Source: an uncultured Dysosmobacter sp.
GTDB lineage: Bacteria > Bacillota > Clostridia > Oscillospirales > Oscillospiraceae
DNA length: 64,000 nucleotides
Direction of reading: 5' to 3'
Assembly (NCBI GenBank): GCA_934565855.1
Contig: CAKTIO010000002.1
Span: 186,001-250,000, forward strand
Part shown: positions 34,933-54,880 of the stretch, piece by piece
Layout of the letters: every line of letters starts with the position of its first letter
How positions within the stretch are numbered: the first letter of the stretch is position 1
The notes under the pieces: generated by a model
Databases searched by the model: none
The model's input: the letters and a program-made list of their open reading frames with translations, nothing else
What the model was told of the DNA's origin: nothing
Position numbers and translations under genes: made by a program

Positions 34933-35136
34933 TTATTGGTCGAAGGAAGGATTGAGGTAATAAACGTTTTTTTCACCCAACCGGTCCTTTGCCAACCGAA
35001 GTCCTTCGCCAAAGCGTTGGAAATGAACAATTTCTCGAGCGCGTAAATAACGGATGGCGTCCGTGACATCGGGATCGTCAGAAAGCCGCAGAATATTGTC
35101 GTAGGTAACTCGCGCCTTCTGCTCTGCTGCGATCAT
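34933..35136 (-). pseudogene. cotJC: 3' part of split cotJC (Mn-catalase-like spore coat protein)
   Basis: The open frame encodes the C-terminal third of CotJC: AAEQKARVTYD, then RAREIVHFQRFGEGL and a YYLNPSFDQ end. It has no ribosome-binding site and no promoter, and its first four codons (MIAA) belong to the attachment-site sequence. The remaining 63 codons complete exactly what is missing from the 5' part at 54458-54880. It supplies two expected di-manganese ligands, the Glu of AAEQKAR and the His of REIVHF, 33 residues apart. It is therefore one exon-like half of an interrupted gene rather than a decayed relic. It would be expressed only after removal of the intervening 19.35 kb. Confidence 0.9.
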
Positions 35137-35149
35137 ATAAGAACAACAT
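35123..35149. repeat. Attachment site attL: core TCTGC plus one 25-bp arm
   Basis: Core TCTGC is at 35123-35127. The arm from 35125 to 35149 begins TGCTGCGATCAT and ends GAACAACAT. It is the inverted counterpart of the arm at 54449-54473 (23 of 25 bases identical). Bases before 35123 are cotJC coding sequence. Confidence 0.88.
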
Positions 35150-35184
35150 GAATCACCGAATCTTTTATAAAATGCAAGTTGTTT

Positions 35185-36060
35185 TTAATTCCTCTTCCGA
35201 TACCCACTGGGCGACATTCCGGTTTTATCACGGAAGCACTTTCCGAAGTGGCTGGTTTGTCCAAAACCCACGCTGACGGCAATTTCGCTAATTGGCATGT
35301 CTGTATTTCGGAGCAATTCTGCTGCCTTGGAGAGCCGGTATTCCATCAGATATTGATATGGCGCGGTTTGCAGGGATGCCTTGAAGCAGCGTAGGCACTC
35401 TGATTTACTGACGTTAGCGCTTTTGGCAAGCATATCCAGTGATATGGGTTCCGGGTAATGCTGTTCGATGTAGCGCAGGAATATAGTCATGCGGGTCTCG
35501 GTGACGTTTTCAGAAAACGAGGTCTGCGGCAGTGTCACAATGTGGCATAGCTCCAACCAGAGACCGCAGAGTGTTGTCAGCACTTCGTAAGCGTATAGTG
35601 ACGTTTTCTGCTGCTCTAGGTCAGATAATTTTTTTAATGCGTTTAGCACATCTTTGCAGTTCTCCCGGTTTTTCATGGGAAAAACCGGGAGACTTTTATT
35701 TTCCATCAGCCGCTCCACAATATTACCAGCCGGACTGCCAAAATAGAATTTCAAAAAATAGTCCGGAAAGATAAAGCTGTTGTAGTGGCAGGAGCCGCTT
35801 TTTTTCACCAGATGCACAACATTTTTATTGATGAAAATGCCTTCGCCTGTATGGAGCGAAATGCGTGTTTCCAGGGTTGCGACCTCGATTGCACCGGACA
35901 GTACATAAATGAACTGTAAATCCTCGTGCCAGTGCATGACCTGAAAACCGGGATTTTGCGGATAGCTGTTATTGTCTATCACATTTAAGACCAGATATGG
36001 AAAATCCGTATTCTGGTTTAGATTGATGGAATGGATATAATCCTGCTGCTTCATGGACAT
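35185..36060 (-). CDS. AraC-family regulator with cupin sensor domain
   Basis: This is a 291-residue transcription factor. The N-terminal cupin-like domain contains MHWHEDLQFIYVLSGAIEV and HTGEGIFINKNVVH. The C-terminal double helix-turn-helix includes LDMLAKSANVSKSECLRCF and ISEIAVSVGFGQTSHFGKCF. The ligand is unknown. It is divergent from the DNA-glycosylase cluster and may control it, though it lacks the Ada methyl-acceptor domain. It is the first gene inside the left end of the element, 35 bp from the attachment arm. Confidence 0.92.
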   Translation of the reverse strand: MSMKQQDYIHSINLNQNTDFPYLVLNVIDNNSYPQNPGFQVMHWHEDLQFIYVLSGAIEVATLETRISLHTGEGIFINKNVVHLVKKSGSCHYNSFIFPDYFLKFYFGSPAGNIVERLMENKSLPVFPMKNRENCKDVLNALKKLSDLEQQKTSLYAYEVLTTLCGLWLELCHIVTLPQTSFSENVTETRMTIFLRYIEQHYPEPISLDMLAKSANVSKSECLRCFKASLQTAPYQYLMEYRLSKAAELLRNTDMPISEIAVSVGFGQTSHFGKCFRDKTGMSPSGYRKRN

Positions 36061-36100
36061 CTCGCCTTATCTCGGAGTGATTATGATAATTTTAGAATAT

Positions 36101-36130
36101 TTTATAATAGTAATCCCTATATAATTGCAA
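36101..36130 (-). promoter_or_regulatory. Possible promoter of the araC-type gene
   Basis: On the minus strand TTGCAA (36130-36125), 18 nt, TATAAA (36106-36101). The region is AT-rich and several other TATAAT-like hexamers occur, so the assignment is uncertain. Confidence 0.4.
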
Positions 36131-36169
36131 TATCATTATACTGCAACTAATGTGAAACGCAAGAAGGTG

Positions 36170-36826
36170 ATGGAAGTGTATTTTGAATATGGAGAGAAGG
36201 AGCTGTCATACTTGCGGCAAAAGGACCAGCGGCTCCGAGAGGTCATTGACTGCATTGGGCATATCGACCGGGCGGCAGATACAGATTTGTTTTCATCTGT
36301 TATCCATCACATCATTGGGCAGCAGATTTCAACCAAGGCACAAGCAACCATCTGGCAGCGGATGCAGGATGCTTTAGGCGAAGTGAATGCTGAAACGATC
36401 CGCGCGGCGGGAGTTCCTAAGCTGCAATCCATAGGTATGATCTTTCGTAAAGCGGAGTATATTACGGATTTTGCTGAAAAGGTCCATAGTGGTTCATTTG
36501 ATTTGAATGCAGTCTGGCATATGTCCAATGAAGCTGCGATTCGGGAATTGAGCAGCTTGAAGGGGATTGGTGTTTGGACAGCAGAGATGATTTTACTGTT
36601 CTGTATGCAGCGTCTGGATATCTTCAGCTACGATGACCTTGCCATCCAGCGTGGACTGCGGATGGTCTACCATCACCGTAGGATCGACCGCAGACTGTTT
36701 GAAAAGTATCGCCGCCGGTTTCATCCCTATTGCAGCGTGGCGAGCCTGTATTTGTGGGCAGTGGCAGGTGGTGCGATTCCGGAAATGAGGGATTATAGAC
36801 CGAAATGCAAAAGAGGAGGAAGATAA
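36170..36826 (+). CDS. HhH-GPD DNA glycosylase, AlkA-like (3-methyladenine glycosylase II)
   Basis: This is a base-excision repair glycosylase of the AlkA/MAG branch. The helix-hairpin-helix is LKGIGVWTAEMILLF, followed by the catalytic Asp region SYDDLAIQRG. The early SSVIHHIIGQQIS motif is typical. There is no Fe-S cysteine cluster, which argues against MutY/Nth. The ATG at 36170 is used, although the AAGAAGG site suits GTG 36176 about as well; an upstream codon at 36125 is less likely. It heads a tight four-gene set with abm, ogt and an HD gene, which suggests alkylation damage repair. Confidence 0.86.
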   Translation: MEVYFEYGEKELSYLRQKDQRLREVIDCIGHIDRAADTDLFSSVIHHIIGQQISTKAQATIWQRMQDALGEVNAETIRAAGVPKLQSIGMIFRKAEYITDFAEKVHSGSFDLNAVWHMSNEAAIRELSSLKGIGVWTAEMILLFCMQRLDIFSYDDLAIQRGLRMVYHHRRIDRRLFEKYRRRFHPYCSVASLYLWAVAGGAIPEMRDYRPKCKRGGR

Positions 36827-37180
36827 ATGGTAAATATCGTTGTCCTATTTGAAGTAAAGCCCACAGCAGCGGGAATGCAGAAATATCTGGATCTTGCTGC
36901 GATGCTGAAGCCCATGCTCGCTGGCTTTGAGGGATTTATCCGAGCTGAGCGCTTCTCCAGCCTGAATGAAGAGGGCAAGCTGCTTTCCATGAATGTTTGG
37001 ACGGATGAAGCGGCTGTGGAGCGCTGGCGTAATGTAATGCAGCATCGCATGAGCCAGAAGGAAGGGCGGGAAAGATTGTTCGAGAGCTATAAAATCACGG
37101 ATTGCTCTGAAATTCGTTCCTATTCAGATACCGACCGTACACAGGCTCCACAGGATTCCAATTTTTTCTTCGGGGTGTAA
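36827..37180 (+). CDS. Antibiotic biosynthesis monooxygenase (ABM) domain protein
   Basis: This is a 117-residue ferredoxin-like alpha+beta barrel protein of the ABM family. The family includes quinol monooxygenases and heme-degrading enzymes, but many members are uncharacterised. The family pattern is seen in IVVLFEVKPTAAGMQKYLDL, FEGFIRAERFSS and WTDEAAVERWR. Its ATG follows the stop of the glycosylase gene with no gap. Its role among repair genes is unknown; detoxification of an electrophile is a guess. Confidence 0.82.
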   Translation: MVNIVVLFEVKPTAAGMQKYLDLAAMLKPMLAGFEGFIRAERFSSLNEEGKLLSMNVWTDEAAVERWRNVMQHRMSQKEGRERLFESYKITDCSEIRSYSDTDRTQAPQDSNFFFGV

Positions 37181-37183
37181 GCA

Positions 37184-37717
37184 ATGACCTTTATTCAACA
37201 TTACGAATCTCCGCTGGGCGGCATTCTGCTTGCGGCAGATGAGATAGGATTGACCGGCTTGTGGTTTGATGGGGAAAAGTACTTTGCCGACCACCTTCCA
37301 GCAGAACGCACGGAAAAGGAAACATCTATTCTTACAGAGACCAAACGCTGGTTAGATATTTATTTTGCCGGCAAGGAGCCGGACTTTTTGCCGCCGCTGC
37401 ATCCCGTTGGTTCCGCGTTCCGAAAGTCTGTGTGGGAGATTCTTTTGAAAATTCCATACGGGCAAACCACTACCTATGGTGAGATTGCACGGCAGCTTGC
37501 TGAAAAGCAAGGACTTGTCCGGATGTCCGCGCAGGCAGTTGGCGGAGCTGTTGGACACAACGAAATTTCCATTATCATTCCTTGTCATCGTGTGGTTGGA
37601 ACCAACGGAAGTTTGACTGGGTATGCTGGCGGAATCAGTAAAAAAGTGAAATTGCTGGAATTGGAACGTACCGATATGAGTGGTCTTTTTGTGCCGAAGA
37701 AGGGAACTGCACTCTGA
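37184..37717 (+). CDS. ogt: Methylated-DNA-[protein]-cysteine S-methyltransferase (Ogt type)
   Basis: Ogt removes alkyl groups from O6-alkylguanine in a suicide reaction. The acceptor C134 lies in the canonical IPCHRVVG. The helix-turn-helix region KIPYGQTTTYGEIA is present, and the N-terminal ribonuclease-like domain is also there. 177 residues fits Ogt, without an Ada regulatory domain. It lies 3 bp after the ABM gene, and the HD gene starts in its stop codon (TGATGG). Confidence 0.95.
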   Translation: MTFIQHYESPLGGILLAADEIGLTGLWFDGEKYFADHLPAERTEKETSILTETKRWLDIYFAGKEPDFLPPLHPVGSAFRKSVWEILLKIPYGQTTTYGEIARQLAEKQGLVRMSAQAVGGAVGHNEISIIIPCHRVVGTNGSLTGYAGGISKKVKLLELERTDMSGLFVPKKGTAL

Positions 37718-38241
37718 TGGATGAAAGGAATATGCTTGTTGCATTTGCAACGCAAAGGATGATTGAGTTTTATAAGGGAAACCTCCACGATATTGACCAT
37801 TTTCTCAAAGTATGGGCAATGGCAAAAACGATTGGAGAGCTTGAGGTATTGGACAGCCGTACGCAGAAGCTTTTAGAGCTTGCTGCTGTGGTACATGACA
37901 TTGCCTGTCCGCTGTGCCGGGAAAAGTACGGTGATACTAATGGAAAGCATCAGGAATTGGAAAGCCCACCGCTGGTAGAAGCATTTTTAGCAGAGCTGCC
38001 GATTACGCATTCTGATGTGGAACGGATTTCGTGGTTGGTGGCACATCATCATACCTATACGAATGTCGATGGTATGGACTACCAGATTTTACTGGAGGCG
38101 GATTTCCTGGTCAATGCAGGAGAGAGTGGTTATGCGCGGTCAGCGATTGAAAATTTTCGCCAGCGAGTGTTTCGTACTGTCACAGGCACGCGATTATTAG
38201 ACAGTATTTATCTAAAAGGCATAGGCACAGGAGGGGCGTGA
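37717..38241 (+). CDS. HD domain phosphohydrolase
   Basis: This is a 174-residue metal-dependent phosphohydrolase of the HD superfamily. Candidate ligands are the His of DIDHF, the HD pair in VVHDIACP, and HHHT. The substrate is unknown; such proteins often act on nucleotides. Its start overlaps the ogt stop by one base, making it the last gene of the repair-like cluster. A terminator lies 130 bp downstream. Confidence 0.85.
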   Translation: MDERNMLVAFATQRMIEFYKGNLHDIDHFLKVWAMAKTIGELEVLDSRTQKLLELAAVVHDIACPLCREKYGDTNGKHQELESPPLVEAFLAELPITHSDVERISWLVAHHHTYTNVDGMDYQILLEADFLVNAGESGYARSAIENFRQRVFRTVTGTRLLDSIYLKGIGTGGA

Positions 38242-38369
38242 GAGCTTCCAGTGGAACTTGGACCCAACGGACGAAATTGGTTATTAGAGAAAATGCTCGT
38301 TTTTCACTGCAAACAGGCAATATGAAACGAAGGACTACGGACTTTGTAAAAATCGCTGTACTCAGAAAG
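38242..38369 (+). other. Non-coding stretch with a possible short gene remnant
   Basis: This is part of the 333-bp gap between the HD gene and the MATE gene. A 24-codon stretch from about 38250 reads VELGPNGRNWLLEKM and then stops. It may be the tail of a lost gene, but I recognise no family. The rest of the gap holds a terminator and the MATE promoter. Confidence 0.3.
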
Positions 38370-38408
38370 AATCCGGCATTACGCTGTCAGCGCAATGCCG
38401 GATTTTTG
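38370..38408 (+). terminator. Rho-independent terminator after the repair-like cluster
   Basis: AATCCGGCATT (38370-38380) pairs with AATGCCGGATT (38394-38404), with further pairing inside, followed by TTTTT. Confidence 0.9.
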
Positions 38409-38501
38409 TATCTTTTTTGTGTGTATTTTAAATAATCACGGTGTATTGGGATTGCATTTACTACTTGACAGAATACTAAAAAAGCTGGAAACAGATTTTT
38501 C

Positions 38502-38529
38502 TTGACAAATAGAGTTACTTCAGTATAAT
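38502..38529 (+). promoter_or_regulatory. Consensus promoter of MATE-marR
   Basis: TTGACA (38502-38507), 16 nt, TATAAT (38524-38529). Both hexamers are perfect and the spacer is one base short. The following 45 bp are AT-rich and may hold the MarR site, but no clean operator was resolved. Confidence 0.85.
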
Positions 38530-38574
38530 AGTCAATGTTATTTACCGTAATTAAATTGACCTTTGGAGGACTAT

Positions 38575-39915
38575 ATGGAGCAGCATGAGAATTCATTGGA
38601 TATCAGAGCGTCGGTGGGCTCATTGCTGAAATATGTGCTGCCAACGATCCTATCCAATATCTTCATGAATATCTACAGCATTGTTGACCAACTTTTTGTG
38701 TCGAATTTGCTGGGAACAGCTGCACTTTCTGCGGTGAGCATTGCGGGACCGTTTCTTGCAATTGCGCTTGCCGTTGGCACAATGATTGCAACAGGCGGCT
38801 GTGCTTTGGTGTCCAATCAAATTGGAGAGAAAAAGAATGAAAAAGCACGGCAGAACTTTTCTTTTTTCATGCTGTTCAGCATAGCTATCAGCACGGCTTT
38901 TTGCGTGGCTGGCATTGTATTTCGGCAGCAAATTCTGTATGCTATGGGTGCAGACACCGCTTTATATGACCTTTGTGAGGCATATGCTGTGCCGATTTTC
39001 CTGCTGATTCCGTTTGCAATGGTCAGTATCGTGCTGCAAATTTTCTTTGTTGCGGCTGGAAAACCGGAGCTTGGATTTTGGCTATCGATTGCGGGTGGTG
39101 TGACGAATATTGGCTTGGATTATGTACTGCTTGCGGTATTTCCTCTGGGAGTGGCTGGGGCAGCTTATGCAACAGCGGCAGGATATGTTTTGCAGTCTGT
39201 CATCGGAGTGGTATTTTTCCTGACCAACCGACAGGGTTCGCTTTATTTTGTTTATCCACGGTTTGACGGAAGGGCATTACTAAAAGCCTGTTCCAACGGT
39301 ATGAGCGAGATGGTAGGAATGCTGGCTGTTACTGTAACGATGATTGCCATGAACCTTATTTTAATGCGGCTTGCTGGCTCTGATGGTGTGGCGGCAGCAG
39401 CGATTATTCTCTCAGTGCAGACGATCCTTTCGGCTGGCTATGTCGGGTATGTGCAGGGGATTGCACCTGTGGTCAGTTATCACTATGGAGCAGGGAATGA
39501 GACAGAACTTCACAAGCTCTACCGGGCAGCACTGAAGACGATTGCCGTGATGTCCGTTGTTACTTTTATTACCGCATTTCCATTAGCAAAGCCGATTGCA
39601 CGGCTATTTGCCGACGGGACAGAAAACGTCATCCGGATGGCTGTCCGTGGAACGGATATTTTTGCGGCGGCATTTTTGCTGATGGGATTTAATTTGTTTG
39701 CTTCCGGCTTTTTCACGGCACTGAACGATGGGAGGACTTCTGCGATTCTGTCTCTATTCCGCATACTGGTTTTCTTAATTGTTCCGTTGCTGTTTTTGCC
39801 GGCATGGATGGGCGTAGATGGCGTATGGATATCCATGCCAGCAGCTGAAGTGCTGAGCGCAGCACTTTCTGTGTTCTTTTTTCAAAAATACAAATCAAAA
39901 TACCATTATGCGTAA
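38575..39915 (+). CDS. MATE-family multidrug efflux transporter
   Basis: This is a cation-coupled exporter of the MATE family with about 12 membrane helices in two six-helix halves. The family start (LKYVLPTILSNIFMNIYSIV) and DQLFVSNLLG are clear. The ATG at 38575 with GGAGG before it is chosen over an in-frame TTG at 38563. 446 residues is typical. A MarR-type regulator follows 12 bp downstream, the usual drug-efflux arrangement. Confidence 0.93.
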   Translation: MEQHENSLDIRASVGSLLKYVLPTILSNIFMNIYSIVDQLFVSNLLGTAALSAVSIAGPFLAIALAVGTMIATGGCALVSNQIGEKKNEKARQNFSFFMLFSIAISTAFCVAGIVFRQQILYAMGADTALYDLCEAYAVPIFLLIPFAMVSIVLQIFFVAAGKPELGFWLSIAGGVTNIGLDYVLLAVFPLGVAGAAYATAAGYVLQSVIGVVFFLTNRQGSLYFVYPRFDGRALLKACSNGMSEMVGMLAVTVTMIAMNLILMRLAGSDGVAAAAIILSVQTILSAGYVGYVQGIAPVVSYHYGAGNETELHKLYRAALKTIAVMSVVTFITAFPLAKPIARLFADGTENVIRMAVRGTDIFAAAFLLMGFNLFASGFFTALNDGRTSAILSLFRILVFLIVPLLFLPAWMGVDGVWISMPAAEVLSAALSVFFFQKYKSKYHYA

Positions 39916-39927
39916 GGAGGGGATATA

Positions 39928-40365
39928 ATGGTTTCCATACAGGATAAACTTATGCAGCAATTTCAGCGTATGGATAAGGTTTACGAAAAATATGCAAAAT
40001 CGAATGGCATGACCTATCTCAGCCTGATGGTTTTGGAAGAGATCTATGAACTGGGCAATGGCTGCACACAAAAGCAGATCAGTGAAGATATTCATTATCC
40101 AAAGCAGTCGATTAATTTAATTGTCAAGGCTTTTATGACAGATGGTATCGTTGAACTCAGGGAGCTGCCGGAAAATCGAAAGAATAAAGGCATTACACTG
40201 ACAAAAAAAGGACAGGACCTTTGCAAAGCTGTGGTTGTTCCACTATTACAGCAGGAGGAGACGGCTATACAGAAAATGGGAGACGCGGAAAGCCGGGAAT
40301 TGATTCGACTATTGGAGCTTTACGGAACCGAATACTGTGAACAAATCACTCAAATCTGTAAGTAA
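39928..40365 (+). CDS. MarR-family transcriptional regulator
   Basis: This is a 145-residue winged-helix regulator. The helix-turn-helix is CTQKQISEDIHYPKQSINLIV and the wing is LPENRKNKGITLTKKG. It is co-transcribed with the MATE gene, so it probably represses that unit until a toxic ligand binds. GGAGGGG precedes the ATG. Confidence 0.9.
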   Translation: MVSIQDKLMQQFQRMDKVYEKYAKSNGMTYLSLMVLEEIYELGNGCTQKQISEDIHYPKQSINLIVKAFMTDGIVELRELPENRKNKGITLTKKGQDLCKAVVVPLLQQEETAIQKMGDAESRELIRLLELYGTEYCEQITQICK

Positions 40366-40412
40366 ATTGGGGAGGACGGATTAATTCCCACTTCTGCCAG
40401 ATAAACAGAAAA

Positions 40413-40449
40413 CCTCCGGTACACATCTTGTACCGGAGGCTTATTTTTC
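40413..40449. terminator. Bidirectional terminator between marR and the lysR-type gene
   Basis: A perfect 10-bp stem CCTCCGGTAC (40413-40422) / GTACCGGAGG (40430-40439) has A-runs on the left and a T-rich stretch on the right. It overlaps the end of the convergent lysR gene. Confidence 0.88.
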
Positions 40450-41307
40450 CTGGTAGGAAAATTTGCGGCACAAAGACTGTGCAAACCCCGTGGCTTCCTT
40501 AGATGGGGAATTGGGTAACGCAACTCCTAACACCCGTTTTGTTGATGGGGTCAATTTTAGCACCCGGACCTGTTCCGGAAGATTTTGCAGACATAACTGC
40601 GGCATAGCCGTTACACCGATACCCTGTGCCACCATAGAGAGCAGAGTCGAATCATCATCACAGTTTACCCGGAGCTGATTGACCGGACAGACGGATAAAT
40701 ACCGGTCTAAAGCATTCATGGGCGCCATCACGAATGGGTACGCAGCAAGATCCTTCTGGGAGATGCTGTCACATTCTGGTGCCAGAGCTTTTGGCAGGAC
40801 TGCAAAATAAGGATCATCCATCAATGGAAACCAGCGGAACGCCCGGCAGCGGACGGGGTCTCCCAGCGCTAAGTCAACAGCACCGTTGAGCAGCCAATCC
40901 GCCAATACATCGGTTCCCACCTGAATATCAAAGGTAGTCTTCGGATGCAGTGCATGATATTCCTGCAAAGCCCCTGGCAGCCATGTATTGGAGATGCTTG
41001 AAAATGTCCCGATCCGCAGGGGTGCCGATGTGCCGTCTGCCAACTGCTTTGCCCGTTCGGTCAAACGGGTGAGCGAGGCATCCGCTTCCATTAAGAGCGG
41101 TAAAAGCTCTTCTCCGTCAGGCGTCAGGCGGATTCCATTGTGATTTCGCTGCAATACCTTGCAGTTCAATTCATTTTCAAGGCTGTTCATTGCCTGCGTT
41201 ACGGCGGACTGTGTGCAATTCAATTCCTGCGCGGCTTTGCGAAAGCTCCCTGTGCGGATAGAGGTCAGCAGAACGCGGATTTTATAGTCATCCATAGAAT
41301 TCTCCAA
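40441..41307 (-). CDS. LysR-family transcriptional regulator
   Basis: This is a 288-residue LysR regulator. The N-terminal winged helix is FRKAAQELNCTQSAVTQAMNSLE, followed by the effector domain with GTFSSISNTWLP. Family members usually regulate a divergent neighbour; here that is the CsaA-like and EamA pair starting at 41405. The effector is unknown. Confidence 0.92.
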   Translation of the reverse strand: MENSMDDYKIRVLLTSIRTGSFRKAAQELNCTQSAVTQAMNSLENELNCKVLQRNHNGIRLTPDGEELLPLLMEADASLTRLTERAKQLADGTSAPLRIGTFSSISNTWLPGALQEYHALHPKTTFDIQVGTDVLADWLLNGAVDLALGDPVRCRAFRWFPLMDDPYFAVLPKALAPECDSISQKDLAAYPFVMAPMNALDRYLSVCPVNQLRVNCDDDSTLLSMVAQGIGVTAMPQLCLQNLPEQVRVLKLTPSTKRVLGVALPNSPSKEATGFAQSLCRKFSYQEK

Positions 41308-41404
41308 GATAAATAAGACTTTCTTATACCCTGATCATACATTCTGTCTTTGCAAAATGCAACTCCTGCGTTACACTTTACTTTAAAACAGGAGGGTGAT
41401 ACAA

Positions 41405-41734
41405 ATGATAACCATTGAGGATTTTGACAAGATACATATGTGCGTGGGAACTGTTACAGCGGTTTCCATGAACAAAAAAGCCAGAAAGCCGGCATATAAG
41501 GTCACGTTGGATTTCGGTCCGGAGCTGGGAGAGAAGACGTCCTCTGCACAGCTGACAAAGCTTTACCAGCCGGAGGACCTGATAGGAAAGCAGCTGATTT
41601 GCTGCGTCAACCTGGAGCCGATGCACATCGGGAGCGTAAAGAGTGAGGTGCGTATTCTTGGTACGGAGTCCAGTCAGGGGTGTGTGCTGCTCATGCCGAT
41701 GGAAGCTGTAGAGAACGGAGACCGGATTTTTTGA
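41405..41734 (+). CDS. CsaA/tRNA-binding-domain protein
   Basis: This is a 109-residue stand-alone tRNA-binding (EMAP/Trbp111-like OB-fold) domain, as in CsaA chaperone-like proteins. KIHMCVGTVTAV, FGPELGEKTSSAQ and CCVNLEPMHIGSVKSEVRILG are the family blocks. ATG 41405 has GGAGGGTG at good distance; an in-frame GTG at 41396 lies inside that site. Its stop overlaps the EamA start by one base. The biological role is unclear. Confidence 0.88.
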   Translation: MITIEDFDKIHMCVGTVTAVSMNKKARKPAYKVTLDFGPELGEKTSSAQLTKLYQPEDLIGKQLICCVNLEPMHIGSVKSEVRILGTESSQGCVLLMPMEAVENGDRIF

Positions 41735-42612
41735 TGCTGCGTAGGAACACATTAGAACAGGGACCCGTGCTGGTTTTTATTGCTGGTGTCCTGTGGGGCA
41801 GCATCGGGCTGTTTATTCATCTAATGTCCGAGGCAGGTGCTTCCGCCGCGACAATCAGCTTTCTTCGCATGGCGTTTGCATTTGGGATCCTTTTCAGCAT
41901 AACAGCGGTTTCCTCCGGCATTTCTGTATTTCGGGTCAGTCGAAAAACGCTTTTTTGCAGCGCGGCGCTCGGATTGGTCTGCCACGGCATTTACAATGTT
42001 TTTTACAGCTGGGCTGTGACGATGATCGGCGTAACGGTCAGCGCGGTTCTGCTGAACATTGCTCCAGTTTTTACAGCTATCATTTCAGCGCTGCTCTTTC
42101 ATGAAAAAATGACTCTCCGTAAAGGAATCGCATTGGTCGTCAACGTGGTTGGGTGTGTGCTGGCAGCGACAGGCGGACATTTTGCGGATGCGCCGCTTTC
42201 CTTTGTGGGAATTTTATGTGGAGTTGCGGCGGGGCTTTGCTATGCGTTGACCGCGATTCTCGGGCGGCTTGCAGGGGAGGGGAGTAATCCCTTTGTAATC
42301 AGCACATACAGCTATTTCTTTGCGGCGCTGTTTTTGGCTATTTTTCAAAAACCGTGGGCAGTGCGGATTGTAATCACGCCCTCCATCGCAGGGCTTGGAT
42401 TTTTGTATGCACTGATTCCGACAGCAATCGGCTATCTGCTTTATTATCAGGGAGTTCAGAGGATCAGGGAAAGCAGTAAGGTTCCCGTCATTGCATCAGT
42501 GGAGACTGTGACAGCAGCTTTGTTGGGTGTACTGGTATTGGGGGAGCAGCTGAGCCTCATTCACTACCTTGGCATTGCTGTTGTGCTTCTGTCCATCGTG
42601 CTGATGCAGTAA
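41734..42612 (+). CDS. EamA/DMT-family permease
   Basis: This is a drug/metabolite transporter superfamily protein with two EamA repeats and ten predicted membrane helices in 292 residues. The start is placed at ATG 41734 (MLRRNTLEQGP), in the stop of the CsaA-like gene. The substrate is unknown; DMT exporters often carry amino acids or metabolites. With csaA-like it forms a two-gene unit divergent from a LysR regulator. Confidence 0.88.
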   Translation: MLRRNTLEQGPVLVFIAGVLWGSIGLFIHLMSEAGASAATISFLRMAFAFGILFSITAVSSGISVFRVSRKTLFCSAALGLVCHGIYNVFYSWAVTMIGVTVSAVLLNIAPVFTAIISALLFHEKMTLRKGIALVVNVVGCVLAATGGHFADAPLSFVGILCGVAAGLCYALTAILGRLAGEGSNPFVISTYSYFFAALFLAIFQKPWAVRIVITPSIAGLGFLYALIPTAIGYLLYYQGVQRIRESSKVPVIASVETVTAALLGVLVLGEQLSLIHYLGIAVVLLSIVLMQ

Positions 42613-42657
42613 AACCGGAGTACCAGCAGAATATAAAATTGTTATCTGATAAAAGGG

Positions 42658-42687
42658 TGCAGTCTGGTCAACAGACTGCATCTTTTT
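42658..42687 (+). terminator. Terminator after the EamA permease
   Basis: TGCAGTCTG (42658-42666) / CAGACTGCA (42672-42680) is followed by TCTTTTTT. It abuts the end of the convergent lysR-type gene. Confidence 0.88.
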
Positions 42688-43598
42688 TAGTAGTTAATGC
42701 TGAATGGTTCTTCAGATGCCAGCAGCATTTTCTTTAAAGCTTTCATAGCGATGCTCTGAGGGCGGGAGAGATCCTCAATCAGACTGACTGAACGCTCCGG
42801 AACCGGCTCCACCAGACGGATCTGGGTCACACTCCCGGCGGCAATGGCGGAGGATGCCATTGGCTCCGGGTAAAAGCCAATGCCAAGGTTGCTTTGAACC
42901 ATAGGCAGGACCTGATCCATAGTGGCAGCCTCCATATCCACATGGAAGGTCAGGTCATGCTTCAGAAACAGCCGCTGATAAAAGGAAAACGTACTGGTCC
43001 CGTTGCCCATGCAGACGAATGGACAAAACTCCACATCCCGAAGCCGCCGCATTTCCGCTGCAAGATATTGAAAATCTGAGCCACAGATCAAAATTTCACG
43101 AAAGGAAAGCAGAGAGGTTTCCCGCAGGGGCTTTCTCACCTGAATCGGAGTTGTGACCACGGCGCAATCGACCTGCCCGTGAAACAGAGCTTCCATTGCA
43201 CGGGGAGTAGAGTCGTTGGTAATCCGCAGATGAACGCCCGGATAGCGCTTATGAAAGGCGGCAAGGCGGTTCAAAAGGATCAGATGCAGAGCGGTTTCAC
43301 TGGCGGCAATGGAAATACTGCCGGTTTCCAGACTGCAATCCTCCCGAATTTCATCCTCTCCCAACCGAAGCTGTTCAAATGCTACGGCGGCACGACCATA
43401 GAGGCGCTGTCCCTCTGGTGTCAGAGAAACGCCGTGGTTGGTACGGACGAACAGCTTGCAGCCCAGATCCTGCTCCAGATTGTTCATACAACGGGTAATG
43501 TTTGGCTGATTGTTGCCAAGAGCCTCCGCAGCCTTAGTAAAGCTTTTGTGCTGGGCAACATAGTAAAAAATGCGGTAATAGTCATAGGGAACCGCCAT
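42687..43598 (-). CDS. LysR-family transcriptional regulator next to purA
   Basis: This is a 303-residue LysR regulator. The helix-turn-helix is FTKAAEALGNNQPNITRCMNNLE. The frame is open to 43817, but the start is set at ATG 43598 (MAVPYDYYRIF) with AGAGGTG before it; the longer version would run through the purA promoter and start. It is divergent from purA, so control of the purA-atp unit is plausible. The effector is unknown. Confidence 0.9.
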   Translation of the reverse strand: MAVPYDYYRIFYYVAQHKSFTKAAEALGNNQPNITRCMNNLEQDLGCKLFVRTNHGVSLTPEGQRLYGRAAVAFEQLRLGEDEIREDCSLETGSISIAASETALHLILLNRLAAFHKRYPGVHLRITNDSTPRAMEALFHGQVDCAVVTTPIQVRKPLRETSLLSFREILICGSDFQYLAAEMRRLRDVEFCPFVCMGNGTSTFSFYQRLFLKHDLTFHVDMEAATMDQVLPMVQSNLGIGFYPEPMASSAIAAGSVTQIRLVEPVPERSVSLIEDLSRPQSIAMKALKKMLLASEEPFSINY

Positions 43599-46848: not shown

Positions 46849-48601
46849 GGCGGCATTGGAAGCGGTACTGCACAGCACCGTGGAACCGACCGTGGAGCAA
46901 AGGACCCGCTTTGCAGACTTCCTGAAGAAAAAGTACCATAGGGAAATCACACTTAGCTGGGAAAGAGATCCTGCATTGGAAAACGGTTTTCGGCTGGAGG
47001 TTGGCGCAGACCTGTATGACTGGAGCTTGGAGGGGCGTCTACGCCAGTTCCGGGAACAGCTGGAACAGCTGAAGCCGACAGGCACATCTGTGATTCCGCT
47101 GATGCGGGAGGCTGTGCATAACTGGCAGCCGGCGGTAGCACCGGAAGAGGTTGGTAGTGTTCTGACAGTGGGGGATGAGATCGCTACGGTCAGTGGTCTG
47201 GAGCATGCCGTTTACGGTGAGATTTTACAGTTTTCCTCCGGCGTGAAGGGTATGGTACAGGATCTGCGTCCGGACCGTATTGGCTGTATCCTGTTCGGAA
47301 ACAGTGAGGATATTGAAGAGGGCAGCATTGTCCGCCGTACTGGAAAAACAGCTGGCGTTCCCGTGAGTGACGGTTACCTTGGAAGGGTTGTAAATGCATT
47401 GGGAGAGCCCATTGACGGCAAGGGTGATATTCCAGCGGAGGATTATCTGCCCATAGAATCTCCGGCACCCGGCATTATCGACCGTCAGCCTGTAAACCGT
47501 CCGATGGAGACCGGACTGCTTGCCATTGACTCCATGTTTCCCATTGGTCGCGGTCAGCGGGAATTGATCATTGGCGACCGTCAGACCGGAAAGACCGCCA
47601 TTGCGCTGGACACCATTCTCAACCAGAAGGGAAAGAATGTGGTCTGCATTTATGTTGCCATCGGACAGAAATCCAGCTCGGTAGCACAGCTGGTAGAAAA
47701 TTTGAAGCGCCGCGGCGCAATGGAATATTCCATTGTGGTAAATGCGCCTGCCAGTGCATCAGCGTCCCTGCAGTATGTTGCACCTTACGCTGGAACGGCT
47801 CTTGGAGAATATTTTATGCGCAAGGGACAAGATGTGCTGATCGTCTATGATGATCTGTCCAAGCATGCAGTGGCTTACCGGACACTGAGCCTGCTGTTGG
47901 AGCGCTCTCCTGGACGGGAGGCGTATCCGGGCGATGTGTTCTATCTGCATTCCCGGCTGCTGGAGCGCTCTGCCCATCTCTCTGATGAGCAGGGCGGCGG
48001 CAGCATGACGGCGCTGCCCATTGTGGAGACCCAAGCGGGTGATGTGTCTGCATATATCCCGACCAATATTATTTCTATCACCGATGGTCAGATCTTTTTG
48101 GAGAGCAATTTGTTCTTCTCCGGTCAGAGACCCGCTGTCAATGTCGGCTTGTCGGTTTCCCGCGTAGGCGGAGATGCCCAAACAAAGGCAATGAAAAAAG
48201 CCTCTGGTGCGCTGCGGCTGGATTTGGCACAGTACCGGGAAATGGAGGTTTTTACCCAGTTCTCCAGTGATTTGGATGAAACGACAAAGCGCCAGCTGGT
48301 CTATGGGCAAGGATTGATGCGTTTGCTGCGCCAACCCCAGTATCATCCGTATGCACAGCATCAGCAGGTCATTTTGCTGGTGGCGGCGCTAAATCATGTG
48401 ATGCAGACGGTGCCGCTGGCAAGCATGGATGATTTCCGCACACAGCTGCTGCAATATGTGGAGACACAAAATATGGTGCTGTGCCGGAAAGTGGATGAAA
48501 GCGGACAGATGAGCGATGACGACCGGGAGACGATTTTAAAATTGTCCAAGGATTTTCTGGCACAGTATCAGGGAACATCCGCGGAAAAGAACGGTGGTTG
48601 A
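46838..48601 (+). CDS. atpA: ATP synthase subunit alpha fused to a delta C-terminal domain
   Basis: Residues about 1-75 match the C-terminal domain of subunit delta (AtpH): EPTVEQRTRF, RDPALENGFRLEVGADLYDW, then SLEGRLRQFREQL. The rest is a full alpha subunit with Walker A GDRQTGKTA, beginning near SVIPLMREAVHNWQP. The delta N-terminal domain, which normally clamps alpha, is missing, so direct fusion could replace that contact while the delta C-domain still meets subunit b. The start ATG 46838 has GAGAGGTGAG before it; an in-frame ATG at 46814 is less likely. 587 residues compares with about 500 for plain alpha. Confidence 0.93.
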   Translation: MRSEAALEAVLHSTVEPTVEQRTRFADFLKKKYHREITLSWERDPALENGFRLEVGADLYDWSLEGRLRQFREQLEQLKPTGTSVIPLMREAVHNWQPAVAPEEVGSVLTVGDEIATVSGLEHAVYGEILQFSSGVKGMVQDLRPDRIGCILFGNSEDIEEGSIVRRTGKTAGVPVSDGYLGRVVNALGEPIDGKGDIPAEDYLPIESPAPGIIDRQPVNRPMETGLLAIDSMFPIGRGQRELIIGDRQTGKTAIALDTILNQKGKNVVCIYVAIGQKSSSVAQLVENLKRRGAMEYSIVVNAPASASASLQYVAPYAGTALGEYFMRKGQDVLIVYDDLSKHAVAYRTLSLLLERSPGREAYPGDVFYLHSRLLERSAHLSDEQGGGSMTALPIVETQAGDVSAYIPTNIISITDGQIFLESNLFFSGQRPAVNVGLSVSRVGGDAQTKAMKKASGALRLDLAQYREMEVFTQFSSDLDETTKRQLVYGQGLMRLLRQPQYHPYAQHQQVILLVAALNHVMQTVPLASMDDFRTQLLQYVETQNMVLCRKVDESGQMSDDDRETILKLSKDFLAQYQGTSAEKNGG

Positions 48602-48602
48602 G

Positions 48603-50909
<2,307 letters not shown>

Positions 50910-50910
<1 letters not shown>

Positions 50911-51326
50911 TGAGCGCTTTTCATGCACGGATTCTCGCCTCGGATACTTCGTTTTTTGACGGCTCCTGCGAATTCATGGTTGTCCCCTGCGCAGATGGCA
51001 CCTTAGGAATTCTGGCGCATCACAGCAATATGATTGCCGCTGTAGTACCGGGAGAACTGCGCTTTCAACCGGAAGGCGGTGAACTGCGGACAGCTGCAGT
51101 GTCTGCCGGATTGGTCAAGATCGAAGAGGGAGAGGTTCTGCTTCTAGTGGATACGGCAGAGCGTCCAGAGGATATTGATGCAAACCGGGCAAAACGCGCA
51201 GCGGATGCTGCCAAGGAAGAGCTTTTGCAAAAGAAAAGTATCCGGGAATATAAGAGCGCGCAGGCAAATCTGGCACGGGCGCTCAGCCGTCTGCGGGTTA
51301 AGGAGCATTGGAGCGGATCCGATTGA
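50910..51326 (+). CDS. atpC: F-type ATP synthase subunit epsilon
   Basis: This is the regulatory rotor subunit. The N-terminal beta sandwich contains DGTLGILAHHSNMIAAV (the GxxGxLxxH pattern), and the C-terminal two-helix arm is Ala/Lys-rich. 138 residues is normal. Its ATG overlaps the beta stop (TGATG). It completes the synthase; no atpI or separate atpH is present. Confidence 0.94.
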
Positions 51327-51358
51327 CGGTACAGACAAGAAAATTGAAGAAGTGATTG

Positions 51359-52042
51359 ATGGTGTATGTTCACAAACGTCATGGGCAGATGTCAGAATCT
51401 TTGCTAACGGCTGCTTTTATTATTCTTTCTGGCGGCTTACAGGATGCTTATACCTATCTTTGCCGGGGAAAGGTGTTCGCAAATGCCCAAACCGGAAACA
51501 TTGTGCTGTTCAGCGCATATCTCTTTGGGGGGAGCTGGACACGCTGTGTCCGTTATCTCATTCCAGTGCTTTCGTTCATGCTTGGAATTTTCGCGGCGGA
51601 ATGTGTCCACCGCCGTTATAAGCATATGGAAAAAGTGCATTGGCGGCAGTTGATCATTTTGGCGGAAATCATTCTGCTTTTTCTGGTAGGCTTTCTTCCG
51701 CAGAACATGAATACCTTTGCCAATGCGGTGGTGTCCTTTGTCTGTGCTATGCAGGTGCAGACCTTTCGTAAGGTACGGGGACATGCGTATGCCAGCACAA
51801 TGTGTATTGGTAATATGCGCAGTGGCACGGAAGCATTGTGCGTTTACTTTCATACCCATGACCATGAGGTGTTGTATAAGGCACTGACCTATTTCGGCGT
51901 CATTGGACTGTTTGCCGTGGGGGCGGGAGTTGGCGCATTGCTGACAGGACGGTTTGCCGAACGCGGTATATGGGTTTCCTGCATATTGCTGGTAGTCAGC
52001 TTTTTGATTATGTTTATCCATGAGGAGGAAGAAAAGAAGTGA
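51359..52042 (+). CDS. YoaK/DUF1275 family membrane protein
   Basis: This is a 227-residue membrane protein of the DUF1275 (YoaK) family, with about six hydrophobic segments. The signature GGLQDAYTYLCRGKVFANAQTGN near the start (about 26-48) and the inner repeat-like TMCIGNMRSGTEAL are typical. The function is unknown. It follows atpC by 32 bp with only a weak ribosome-binding site, probably in the same transcript. It overlaps the next gene by 4 bp. Confidence 0.88.
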   Translation: MVYVHKRHGQMSESLLTAAFIILSGGLQDAYTYLCRGKVFANAQTGNIVLFSAYLFGGSWTRCVRYLIPVLSFMLGIFAAECVHRRYKHMEKVHWRQLIILAEIILLFLVGFLPQNMNTFANAVVSFVCAMQVQTFRKVRGHAYASTMCIGNMRSGTEALCVYFHTHDHEVLYKALTYFGVIGLFAVGAGVGALLTGRFAERGIWVSCILLVVSFLIMFIHEEEEKK

Positions 52043-52470
52043 GCTGTTTTTTGCCGCCCATCGGAGATATGGATGCTTATGCCGCCAATAATCCCTTTAT
52101 GGCATACAATCATATTCATCTTGTTACCATTGATATGGATGAGAAAGGGGAGTATCGGGCAAAGGCTTGCGTGGAGCTGCGTCCGGAATCTAAAAACCTG
52201 CATGGAGCTGTTCATGGCGGATTACTTTACGGTCTGGCAGACTGTGCGGCAGGGGCTGCTGCCCGCTGTGATGGCAATGACTATGTGACTCAAAGCGCAC
52301 ATATTGATTTTCTCCGCAATACCACATATGGAAAAGTTACCGCACGGGCTGCAGTAGTCCGGCGGGGGCGGCATGTCGTGGTTTTGCATGTAGAGATTTA
52401 CGATGAGGAAAACATGCTTCTTGCTGATTGTGCGGTGGATATGATGCGCATAGAGAAAAAAGAGAAATAG
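52039..52470 (+). CDS. PaaI-type hotdog thioesterase
   Basis: This is a 143-residue hotdog thioesterase of the PaaI/4-hydroxybenzoyl-CoA thioesterase family. NLHGAVHGGLLYGLADCAAG is the conserved active-site helix and QSAHIDFLRNT the central strand. GTG 52039 is taken as the start, because GAGGAGG lies 10 or so bases upstream inside the DUF1275 gene; ATG 52069 would lack that site. It is the last gene of the purA-atp unit. The acyl-CoA substrate is unknown. Confidence 0.88.
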   Translation: MSCFLPPIGDMDAYAANNPFMAYNHIHLVTIDMDEKGEYRAKACVELRPESKNLHGAVHGGLLYGLADCAAGAAARCDGNDYVTQSAHIDFLRNTTYGKVTARAAVVRRGRHVVVLHVEIYDEENMLLADCAVDMMRIEKKEK

Positions 52471-52479
52471 AAAAATCAA

Positions 52480-52520
52480 AAGGAAGCTGTTCCAATTTAT
52501 CGGAATAGCTTCCTTCTTTA
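52480..52520. terminator. Bidirectional terminator between the thioesterase and recombinase genes
   Basis: AAGGAAGCTGTTCC (52480-52493) pairs with GGAATAGCTTCCTT (52502-52515) with one G-U pair, flanked by A-rich and T-rich stretches. It separates the atp unit from the convergent recombinase. Confidence 0.88.
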
Positions 52521-52522
52521 TT

Positions 52523-54079
52523 TCAGAAGTTCCAGTGAATCTCGATAGGGACGTTCTGTGTTCCGGGAATTCTTTTTCCAACTGTGATATAGTCAATTAG
52601 AATTTCTACTATCTCGCGAGTCAAGTGATCTACATGAGTGTAATGCTGTATAATTTCTTTTTGCTGGTCGCCTGTAAGTATTTGTGTTGCCAGTTCATTT
52701 AAGTTTCGATCGGTATCTTTGATTTGATTTTCTATGCGTTTTCGTTCTGCTGAAAAGTCATTTGCTATGGAATGATAGTCTTCCTCACTGACAATTCCTT
52801 TTACTTTATCCATGTATAAAATGCGCAGATAGGAGTGATTGCTCTCCAACTGCTTTTGAAGTATCGTTTTAGCTTTTTGCCAATTTTCTCTTTGTTGCTC
52901 CACATTTCGATTGAACTCTACGTTGCGTTCTAATTCTCTTTCATCCAAGTAACATTGCGAAAATTTGTTTAGCTCCTCAATTACGATTTTTTCCAGTTTA
53001 TCGACTGCAATGAAGGATCCAATACAGGCGTCCTTTGCCACATGTCGGTTGGAACATTGCAGGTAGTGTTTTTCATGGCTTTTTGATGAACGCATGATAT
53101 AGCCGCAGTTGGCGCAGCGTACCTTTTTAGCAAATAGCCCTATGGTTCCAATGTTAAATGGCTTTGATCGAGATGCGATAAGGGTCTGTACCCGCTCCCA
53201 AAGATTACGGTCAATAATGGCTTCATGAGTATTTTCGACACGATACCAGTCGCTTTGGGGGCGTGGTTTGTTCTGCTTGGTTTTGTAAGAAATGCTGCCA
53301 TATTTACCTTGTATCATATTCCCTATGTAAATCTCGTTGGTTAGCATATCGGAAATTGAAAAATATTTCCACAGGGTACTGTTTTTCCGCCTTGGCTGTT
53401 GGTATCGAAGACCGTGAAGACGTTTATATTCCGTTGGATTTGGAATACCGCGGTCATTCAGCATTCGAGCGATCATTGTTTTCCCGTATCCTTGGGAAAA
53501 GAGAGTAAATATTTCTCGCACTACGGCGGCAGCCTCTTCATCAACTATGAGATGTCCTTGCTTTTCCGGATCTTTTTTATAACCATAAAGTGCAAAAGCA
53601 CCGATATGAAATCCATTTTTGCGGCGGTTAGTCAACACGGCACGGATGTTTTCAGACATATCTTCCAGATACCATTCGTTGACCAGACCGTTGATTTGAC
53701 GGGATTTTTTGTTGCCTTTGTTTGCCGTGTCTGCGTTGTCTACCAGACTGATAAAACGGATGCCCCAGACAGGAAATAGCCCGTTTATGTATTTTTCTAC
53801 CAGTTCTAATTCGCGTGTGAAACGGGATTGACTCTTGCAGAGAATAATATCGAACTTATGTGTTTGGGCATCGTCTAATAAGCGCTTAAATTCTGGGCGG
53901 TTTCGGTCAGAGCCTGTGTAATTGTCATCACTGTAAATGTTATATACTTCCCAGTTTTGCTGAATAGAATATTCCAGAAGCATAGACTTTTGATTTTGGA
54001 TGCTGTTACTATCATCTAATTCACTTTTTTTGTTACGGTCTTCTTCTGACAATCGGCAGTAAATCGCAGCCTTTTTCAC
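52523..54079 (-). CDS. Large serine recombinase of the cotJC element
   Basis: This is a 518-residue site-specific recombinase. The resolvase/invertase catalytic domain (about 1-150) has nucleophile S11 (CRLSEED) with R9, R86 and R89. A recombinase domain (about 160-285), a zinc ribbon with C322, C325, C342 and C352, and a coiled-coil stretch (about 385-470) follow, as in phage integrases, TndX and skin/SP-beta recombinases. It starts with GTG 54079 after TAGGAGG. It lies 0.4 kb inside one attachment site and reads in the same direction as cotJC. Its DNA is more AT-rich than the flanking genes. It is the obvious candidate to excise the element. Confidence 0.94.
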   Translation of the reverse strand: MKKAAIYCRLSEEDRNKKSELDDSNSIQNQKSMLLEYSIQQNWEVYNIYSDDNYTGSDRNRPEFKRLLDDAQTHKFDIILCKSQSRFTRELELVEKYINGLFPVWGIRFISLVDNADTANKGNKKSRQINGLVNEWYLEDMSENIRAVLTNRRKNGFHIGAFALYGYKKDPEKQGHLIVDEEAAAVVREIFTLFSQGYGKTMIARMLNDRGIPNPTEYKRLHGLRYQQPRRKNSTLWKYFSISDMLTNEIYIGNMIQGKYGSISYKTKQNKPRPQSDWYRVENTHEAIIDRNLWERVQTLIASRSKPFNIGTIGLFAKKVRCANCGYIMRSSKSHEKHYLQCSNRHVAKDACIGSFIAVDKLEKIVIEELNKFSQCYLDERELERNVEFNRNVEQQRENWQKAKTILQKQLESNHSYLRILYMDKVKGIVSEEDYHSIANDFSAERKRIENQIKDTDRNLNELATQILTGDQQKEIIQHYTHVDHLTREIVEILIDYITVGKRIPGTQNVPIEIHWNF

Positions 54080-54114
54080 TTACACAGCCTCCTATCAAAC
54101 TTTCACAGGGATAT

Positions 54115-54156
54115 AAAAAATCCGCTTTCATCGCAGTCTGAACGCGATGAAAACGG
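54115..54156 (-). terminator. Hairpin-terminator between the 44-codon ORF and the recombinase gene
   Basis: On the minus strand CCGTTTTCATCGC (54156-54144) pairs with GCGATGAAAGCGG (54134-54122), one mismatch, followed by TTTTTT. Only 35 bp remain before the recombinase start, too little for another promoter. Recombinase expression therefore probably needs read-through or antitermination. Confidence 0.82.
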
Positions 54157-54183
54157 GGTTTATGTATTTGCACCAATATCTGA

Positions 54184-54318
54184 TTATTTAATACCAAATA
54201 GGATTGCTTTAGAACGTTCCAACTGATTGATCAGTTGAATCCAGATGTTTGTGTAATTCTGAACGGTCGTATGGTTTTCACCGCTTTTAAAATAGTTCTT
54301 GCAGGTAGAGTCGCTCAT
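54184..54318 (-). CDS. Small 44-residue ORF beside the recombinase, possible directionality factor
   Basis: The ORF encodes MSDSTCKNYFKSGENHTTVQ, then NYTNIWIQLINQLERSKAIL and FGIK. GAGGAGG lies 9-10 bases before the ATG, strong support for translation. It sits between attR and the serine recombinase, in the same direction. I do not recognise the family. By position it could be the recombination directionality factor, as SprB is for SP-beta, or a leader peptide coupled to the following terminator. CATATTTTA at 54341-54333 resembles a sigma-K -10, but it lies very close to the ribosome-binding site. Confidence 0.7.
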   Translation of the reverse strand: MSDSTCKNYFKSGENHTTVQNYTNIWIQLINQLERSKAILFGIK

Positions 54319-54448
54319 CAAATAATTCCTCCTCGATTTAAAATATGCTGGGATTAAGTAGAGTAGAAGAAAAATTATTTGGAATAAACTGAAAATAATT
54401 GCAGAGTTTTATAGATTATCATTTTATTATTGAAAGAGCGGTTATTAT

Positions 54449-54478
54449 ATGTTGTCCTTACATGATCGCAGCATCTGC
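54449..54478. repeat. Attachment site attR: 25-bp arm plus core TCTGC
   Basis: The arm 54449-54473 begins ATGTTGTCC and ends GATCGCAGCA; core TCTGC is at 54474-54478. The arm is the inverted match of 35125-35149 with two mismatches. It introduces the premature stop (TAA, 54460-54458) into the 5' part of cotJC. Confidence 0.88.
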
Positions 54479-54880
54479 AGCCAAGTCCTCTGTAAGGTCC
54501 GCGATCGTGTCGCCAGTGACCTGCATAGTCGCAGCGGACCACGGATAGCCCGAAGCGAACTGTGGAAATACCCCCGTCGTGTGATCAACAAAGTAGCTGT
54601 CAAATCCGGATTCTTTAATTTGATCTTCTGTGAGATTTCTTGTCAGTTGATGGACAATGGTTCCGACCATCTCTAAATGTCCCAGTTCCTCTGTGCCGAT
54701 ATCGGTTAGCAGCCCTTTCAGTTCCGGATAGGGCATGGAGTAACGCTGGGACAAATACCGCAGGGAAGCGCCAAGTTCGCCGTCCGGTCCGCCATACTGT
54801 GTAATGATCAGTGCTGCCAATTTTGGATTTGGCGTTTTGATGTTGACCGGATATTGAAGCTTTTTTTCATAGACAAACAT
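54458..54880 (-). pseudogene. cotJC: 5' part of split cotJC (Mn-catalase-like spore coat protein)
   Basis: The frame encodes residues 1-135 of CotJC plus five codons (DAAIM) from the attachment arm before a stop. CotJC is a manganese-catalase-like protein of the inner spore coat. Expected metal ligands E35 (GPDGELG), E65 and H68 (TEELGHLE) are present, but the fourth and fifth lie in the distant 3' part. Joining at TC restores E136 and, in the other half, H169. The spacings 35/65/68/136/169 follow the Mn-catalase pattern. The frame starts directly in the cotJAB stop region with a good ribosome-binding site (GGGAGGTCGCGC). As it stands, the product cannot form the dimetal site. Confidence 0.92.

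Follow-up and report, generated by a model that had tools for sequence, protein, structure and literature searches.

In the window considered here, a 64,000-nucleotide (nt) stretch of a contig (CAKTIO010000002.1) from an uncultured Dysosmobacter sp., the spore coat gene cotJC is broken at codon 136 by an intervening element of 19,351 bp (core centre to core centre). An earlier note, made from this DNA alone, described two minus-strand halves of one CotJC protein lying 19.35 kb apart, and this is borne out by the open reading frames (ORFs) and by matches to Pfam PF05067 in both of them. The core TCTGC, which reads GCAGA on the cotJC strand, is present at both break points as reported, and rejoining at the core gives ...EDLAAEQKAR... 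within a product of 198 residues, in frame and with no internal stop. The split cotJC, with its in-frame attachment (att) cores, is real. The 5'-half ORF is cotJC-derived down to about position 54474, and the element provides the coding sequence for its final residues, DAAIM, over the core and past it. The element has its own site-specific recombinase near one end, the large serine recombinase of the earlier note, whose ORF starts 0.39 kb from the core, and the terminator proposed to end the restored operon was recovered as a hairpin (Table 1). Upstream lies cotJAB-amidase-radA-xerC, an arrangement that is usual among the nearest relatives. The best relatives of this cotJC are in records named Oscillibacter or Oscillospiraceae, with up to 88%, 91%, and 92% identity in separate searches.

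The earlier note suggested looking for an empty site in cotJC of sister genomes, and such sites are present. In 80/80 fetched relatives (the best 80 of 497 confirmed, by a ranking that favors whole genes), cotJC is continuous through the window's break point, with no stop. At one locus (L219), the window's two flanks align at touching positions (an overlap of ten bases) with 72-74% identity. Relatives thus hold the uninterrupted form by which an element intervening in a sporulation gene is recognized.

The recombinase recurs in other genomes, and close relatives of it are found with cotJC (genomes and loci are given our working labels, G and L, where needed). Matches at E <= 1e-180 (55-82% identity) occur in 20 of 400 same-family genomes, and in all 20 a cotJC piece is on the same stretch. 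In 19 of these genomes, a search with whole CotJC recovered two separate pieces, the 5' one ending near residue 136; in the other (G119), it recovered a 3' piece alone. No intact cotJC orthologue is among the matches listed in the 20 genomes, one of which (G362) has a 40% paralogue. For comparison, long CotJC matches (E <= 1e-82) occur in 208/400 genomes, and some of these end near residue 178 (G020, G207, G296). An order-wide search gave recombinase matches at E <= 1e-130 in 24 of 295 genomes (25 rows); the 15 rows given loci all adjoin a cotJC half (14 new, 1 already in the family set), with the other 10, some only 44-47% identical, left out. Among 11 IMG/VR loci, seven have full-length recombinase relatives at >= 61% identity, of which six adjoin a cotJC half and the seventh runs to its contig end. 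Judging from these comparisons, relatives of the window's element occupy the same cotJC spot in many gut spore-formers, and what the earlier reader had seen as one case belongs to a family.

It should be noted that the association does not extend to the recombinase family as a whole. That possibility was rejected, given relatives at 43-46% identity without cotJC (L081-L083). No cotJC was seen in the wider stretches of these loci (L124-L126), nor with two IMG/VR relatives at 43-45%.

The recurrence bears on the possibility that an assembly artefact joined unrelated contigs. The cut recurs at this place across many assemblies; one genome (G452) has both halves on a single 3.67-Mb contig, and 10 others have both halves on single contigs and on the same strand. 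Misassembly therefore does not explain the class, and we give an artefact almost no credence.

Among the 21 elements, junction layout could be compared at the 5' end in 18 and at the 3' end in 20. The window reads GCAGA followed by TGCTGCGATCATGTAAGGACAACAT at one end and ATGTTGTTCTTATATGATCGCAGCAGA followed by GCAG at the other, and the family ends follow one pattern. Arms are divergent in some elements (e.g., G234, G433), and two (G371 and G452) have GCACCAGA where others have GCAGCAGA. When the window's arms are joined as a circle, 23 of 26 positions are complementary around a central GA, making a near-palindromic attP, compared with 3 of 26 at the empty site. Complementary att arms are usual for large serine integrases. 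As in the window, where a short direct repeat at both ends goes with in-frame restoration, every element that could be paired at both ends joins in frame (16/16, with G119, G145, G202, G234, and G478 left without pairing). Joining yields a full CotJC of 198-206 residues in 13 of these 16; in the other three (G132, G371, and G433), the joined frame runs into other sequence, and cotJC is cut again near residue 175. A shorter attP core pattern matched 60 viral stretches, none of which had both outer arms on inspection, and was dropped.

A different idea is that the halves are made separately and work together as a split protein, with no DNA rearrangement. The window's 3' half does, by chance, start with an in-frame ATG. 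However, the ATG is not kept and the bases before the 3' half differ elsewhere (e.g., G093, G124, G132), and the conserved recombinase and att arms would be needless for a split protein, so we consider this highly improbable.

Directly upstream of the recombinase is an ORF of 44 amino acids, which by its position is a candidate recombination directionality factor. Searches with this protein (tblastn, E <= 1) found a match in 17 of the 20 other elements, at E 0.006 and 0.077 in the two weakest cases; in the other three, a short ORF in the equivalent position was matched by eye. The small ORF is in turn preceded, within 75 nt, by CATANNNT in 18 of 21 elements, vs. 24 of 215 other gene upstreams at the same loci. 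The box is 27-44 nt away in 17 elements and 62 nt away in one, and shuffled sequences gave it in 1.8 of 21 on average and in 7 at most. In the group of elements cut at codon 175 (see below), no clear CATA box was found next to the small ORF; thus, the promoter argument is restricted to the codon-136 group. Some of the more distant recombinases mentioned above (43-46% identity, L124-L126) precede look-alike ORFs, again with a small ORF and CATA boxes upstream. In one case (L124), the next gene after the recombinase gives a partial PRK06851-like match that is below the model cut-off. The gene beside these recombinases is perhaps another interrupted gene.

The target gene would itself be expressed in the mother cell, by analogy with Clostridioides difficile and given that a CATAAAAT box precedes cotJAB in the window. 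In the available portions of the C. difficile study (PMC3789822), expression of the cotJB2-cotD and cotF-cotCB operons is reduced in a sigK mutant, the -10 sequences of sigmaE and sigmaK promoters are very similar, and the sigmaK-type promoter of sigK reads CATATAAT with AC. We read the manganese-catalase coat proteins of the two operons as CotJC homologues.

Until the element leaves, the 62-codon 3' half is outside CotJC, and thus constraint on it tests use of the split gene. Two genomes (G302 and G180) align as a single 12.8-kb block (87.9% identity) from the upstream neighbours through the element and into the 3' half, indicating that this pair inherited the element together with its host. 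Their stranded 3' halves differ by 15 synonymous and 0 nonsynonymous changes (Fisher p 5e-12), which shows strong purifying selection; the 5' halves differ by 54 synonymous and 4 nonsynonymous changes, and the ratio of nonsynonymous to synonymous change (pN/pS) of the recombinase is 0.16. More broadly, all 17 of the 3' halves are free of stop codons, and over 136 pairs their median pN/pS is 0.20, vs. 0.13 in 40 intact genes, in sets that differ in divergence. Constraint on the stranded 3' halves is thus retained, although it looks somewhat weaker than in intact genes.

These observations must be set against the simplest rival, in which an ordinary integrative element knocked out a dispensable coat gene, with an occasional exit, no developmental use, and no selection for rejoining. 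The window's insertion could be recent, and the cargo resembles ordinary host genes. Yet this reading does not sit well with the 3' half of the G302/G180 pair, with the uninterrupted frame of all 17 3' halves, or with the mother-cell-type box that 18 of 21 elements have upstream of their recombinase unit, and we regard it as improbable.

In our view, it is very likely that the window holds a skin-like element in codon 136 of cotJC that is removed in the mother cell, where the gene is rejoined. The large serine recombinase that the element carries would have inserted it into cotJC. When the cell sporulates, one of the mother-cell sigma factors, sigmaE or sigmaK, would read CATATTTTA and drive the small ORF and the recombinase. 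With the small protein acting as a directionality factor, the ends would be joined and the element would leave as a circle, so that the rejoined cotJA/B-cotJC operon could make the full coat protein. The forespore chromosome would keep the element while the doomed mother cell loses it, and thus the element would be inherited despite that loss. The cotJC gene probably has to be reassembled for every spore; that it is assembled only during sporulation, as the earlier note proposed, is something that we also infer. That interpretation agrees with what sequence can test: the in-frame cores, the recombinase, the empty sites, the recurring cut, the -10 box, and the selection on the 3' half.

Several observations weigh the other way. 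No excised junction or circle was seen in the two places searched, the IMG/VR attP pattern and the protein database: The full-arm attP pattern had 0 matches in IMG/VR (as an exact pattern, it would miss divergent members), and in the protein database the top intact CotJC among the matches listed has 92% identity (the database is clustered at 90%, and a closer intact copy could sit inside a cluster). The selection test is one genome pair (G302/G180) and does not involve the window. The 44-residue ORF is without a match to any known directionality factor. Three of 21 elements (L160, L161, L162) lack the CATANNNT box, and the enrichment value for this box (p = 7e-15) is overstated because it treats related elements as independent, four pairs being close. 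The sigmaK -35 element, AC, is present in the window but in only two of the 18 box-bearing elements; it was rejected as a general family feature, and either sigmaE or sigmaK may thus act. Lastly, the element has no foreign base composition (GC 48.8% vs. 50.5% and 47.3%).

As well as the stable inheritance suggested by the G302/G180 pair, there are signs of movement. The elements of G093 and G132 are 91.4% identical over 13.2 kb and 96.3% over 5.3 kb, with cotJC at 75-77%, and the recombinase genes of G452 and G371 are 93.2% alike, with cotJC at 69.9%. One genome pair appears, from such comparisons, to show element transfer between species. Across 120 pairs from 16 elements, recombinase and cotJC identities are weakly correlated (Spearman 0.20, p 0.03), and vertical descent alone was rejected. 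The family shows signs of both cross-species transfer and stable inheritance.

Codon 136 is not the only place at which cotJC is cut. In seven of the 20 genomes, there is an additional cut, near residue 32 (G234, G478), 62 (G145, G202), or 175 (G132, G371, G433), so that some genomes hold cotJC in three pieces. A different serine recombinase is at the extra junction in five of the seven (G234, G478, G145, G202, and G132), and none was recognized at the residue-175 junction of G371 and G433. A 12-nt core is repeated at both ends of the extra cut in G132 (CGCTTCGGCGAA) and G234 (GTATGGCGGACC); no clear 12-nt core was found there in G202, G371, or G478. The residue-175 recombinase has matches (E <= 1e-120) in 30 of 300 genomes. 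Among 15 loci given, the 10 with >= 62% identity (including the query) adjoin a cotJC tail, and the five at 55-57% have no cotJC piece within 1.5 kb. For the residue-62 recombinase (E <= 1e-110 in 46 of 300 genomes), 13 of 15 loci given, including the query and G145, adjoin cotJC cut at 61-66. The exceptions are L303, without cotJC, and L305, which is mixed: Its residue-62-type recombinase adjoins a divergent piece resembling cotJC, and another cotJC-like stretch there contains a stop and may be a decayed copy. By sequence comparison, then, cotJC has at least three insertion sites besides codon 136, mostly with other recombinases.

The four sites fall at the 85th-95th percentile of DNA conservation (joint p 0.006 over 79 intact genes, with the windows around the sites chosen by us), and in an alignment they are within a few codons of the metal-ligand residues of manganese catalase. 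We take the ligands of the Lactiplantibacillus plantarum enzyme to be E35, E66, H69, E148, and H181.

Two further observations concern genes cut more than once. Contig G234:C1 has cotJC in three pieces (at ~112, 72, and 130 kb), of which the 3' piece lies in the opposite orientation, reflecting either an inversion or a scaffolding error. In addition, three IMG/VR contigs called viral (L283, L284, L286) have cotJC pieces that run from about residue 63 to 136, and are thus cut twice. Some members of the cotJC-element group may be prophages.

Table 1. Features of the interrupted cotJC locus and of the intervening element (positions in the window)
Feature	Position	Strand	Basis or remarks
Hairpin at end of restored cotJ operon	34886-34928	-	-33.8 kcal/mol, z -9.3
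3' half of cotJC	34933-35136	-	Residues 136-198 after joining; Pfam Mn_catalase positions 147-197
3'-half-end junction	35095-35150		Core TCTGC, centre TC 35123-35124, element arm TGCTGCGATCATATAAGAACAACAT
Intervening element between core centres	35125-54473		Junction sequences and in-frame joining
Cargo: AraC regulator, HhH-GPD glycosylase, ABM, Ogt-type methyltransferase	within 35185-43817		Pfam
Cargo: HD protein, MATE transporter, MarR, LysR-type regulator	within 35185-43817		Pfam
Cargo: tRNA-binding domain, EamA transporter, second LysR-type ORF	within 35185-43817		Pfam except last
purA-like adenylosuccinate synthetase	43612-45078	+	Pfam E 1e-147
F-type ATP synthase operon	45075-51326	+	Pfam for subunit a and delta-alpha fusion; relatives
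DUF1275 protein and thioesterase	51356-52470	+	Pfam
Large serine recombinase, 518 amino acids	52523-54079	-	Pfam Resolvase, Recombinase, zinc ribbon, DUF4368; PHROG integrase
ORF of 44 amino acids directly upstream of recombinase	54184-54318	-	Candidate recombination directionality factor, from position
CATATTTTA, sigmaE/sigmaK-type -10 box	54339-54347	-	29 nt before small ORF; AC 15 nt further upstream
5'-half-end junction	54449-54500		Element arm ATGTTGTCCTTACATGATCGCAGCA, core TCTGC, centre TC 54474-54475
5' half of cotJC	54458-54880	-	140-residue ORF; Pfam Mn_catalase PF05067 profile positions 1-151
Fused cotJA-cotJB, upstream partner of cotJC	54880-55335	-	Pfam CotJA and CotJB
CATAAAATG box upstream of cotJ operon	55409-55417	-	

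The cargo of the window's element looks to be of host type and includes enzymes of DNA-repair type (Table 1). Its Pfam scan left out seven ORFs (five ATP synthase subunits, one LysR-type ORF, and the small ORF); we take the ORF at 42687-43817 to be the second LysR-type gene, and the other subunits within 45075-51326 are presumably as operon order would have them. There was no head, tail, or lysis match when 10 element proteins were compared with PHROGs, and no relaxase or transfer genes among 16 element proteins scanned with Pfam; the element is accordingly recognizable neither as a prophage nor as a conjugative element. At 46814-48601, the C-terminal part of the ATP synthase delta subunit and the alpha subunit are fused in one ORF, with matches of the same span in related genomes.

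It is possible, though we would not bet on it, that a small element later took in host genes, placing the ATP synthase block between the att sites, a history that is compatible with developmental excision. Among 86 related genomes, 35 have an operon in which this subunit is likewise fused (E <= 1e-100), and all 17 operons fetched are away from cotJC, with neither cotJC nor such a recombinase on the surrounding 6.8-20 kb. The operon was also not seen in the 20 related elements on the stretches searched, which cover some elements in part. However, it could also have entered as cargo. In another genome, a 27-kb cotJC element (G093:C62, ~65451-92610, from L147 and L167) has a type II clustered regularly interspaced short palindromic repeats (CRISPR) system, with Cas9 (TIGR01865), Cas1 in two ORFs, Cas2, and an array with a 66-bp period next to the junction.

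Taken together, we lean toward the view that cotJC serves Oscillospiraceae and their relatives as a general docking gene, used by at least four recombinase groups, each with its own conserved site near the metal-ligand motifs. Islands with host-type cargo would ride silently in it, strains with cotJC in three pieces would need two excisions, and here the mother cell would discard an ATP synthase operon. One coat gene is hit repeatedly, with several sites used by distinct groups of recombinases, in gut spore-formers of which most are known only from metagenomes. A comparative test thus becomes possible of why elements of this kind insert in mother-cell genes. The family also offers many natural sets of recombinase, att sites, and partner protein. 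There is a practical warning as well: cotJC, like other spore genes, may be counted as defective or absent when gut genomes are scored.

In the available portions of the literature, to which the statements on published systems below are limited, a small number of genes, chiefly in Bacillus, have been shown to be reassembled during development, and elements are described in sigK, spsM, spoVFB, spoVR, gerE, kamA, and yabG (PMC6957869, PMC5595907, PMC10747680, PMC4191935). We found no report of an element in cotJC in the open-access literature (PubMed Central). The term cotJ is absent from the main text of PMC6957869, PMC5595907, and PMC10747680, and the term cotJC from that of PMC4191935. The earlier note gave as known that skin (sigK) and SP-beta (spsM) in Bacillus are removed from the mother-cell chromosome, in agreement with published accounts (PMC4191935 for spsM).

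The closest parallel is skin in sigK of Bacillus subtilis and C. difficile, in which, as in the window, a mother-cell gene is cut by an element with a serine recombinase, and its halves join in frame. A small directionality factor is described for skin, and the window has a candidate small ORF. By analogy, we infer that the window's element works like skin. The targets differ, being a sigma factor gene for skin and a structural coat gene in the window; a second difference is that the tested cargo of the window's element gave no phage-structural match. Some of the genomes with cotJC elements also have sigK-like sequences in two complementary pieces (G452:C1:883325-906243 and G371:C69:83242-102362; also G433, G190, and G124). 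Where both pieces share a contig, they are ~22 and 18.5 kb apart, which fits the expectation for skin elements. The sigK model cut-off was reached by none of the 20 genomes and by no control genome; because it is unmet even in controls, these matches are used as likeness only.

SP-beta resembles the window's element in that it interrupts a spore-envelope gene, spsM, which its precise excision at sporulation rebuilds (PMC4191935). Unlike the window's element, for which there was no phage-structural match in the 10 proteins tested, SP-beta is an active phage. It is also much larger. By sequence, the closest solved chains to the N-terminal part of the window's recombinase are TnpX and TP901-1 integrase (PDB 2mhc, 3bvp); neither is, to our knowledge, known to rebuild a sporulation gene.

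Like the window's element, gin in gerE of Bacillus cereus ATCC10987 is a nonphage island with a serine recombinase, GirC, which has a partner, GirX, and is expressed at sporulation (PMC5595907). However, gin carries three serine recombinases, compared with one seen in the window's element, and the targets differ. Other elements in sporulation genes are vfbin (spoVFB), vrin (spoVR), yin (yabG), and phi12-5 (kamA), each described at one site per gene, whereas cotJC has at least four sites and can be cut into up to three pieces. What is new here is the target gene, the repeated use of one gene at multiple sites, and a cargo without a phage-structural match.

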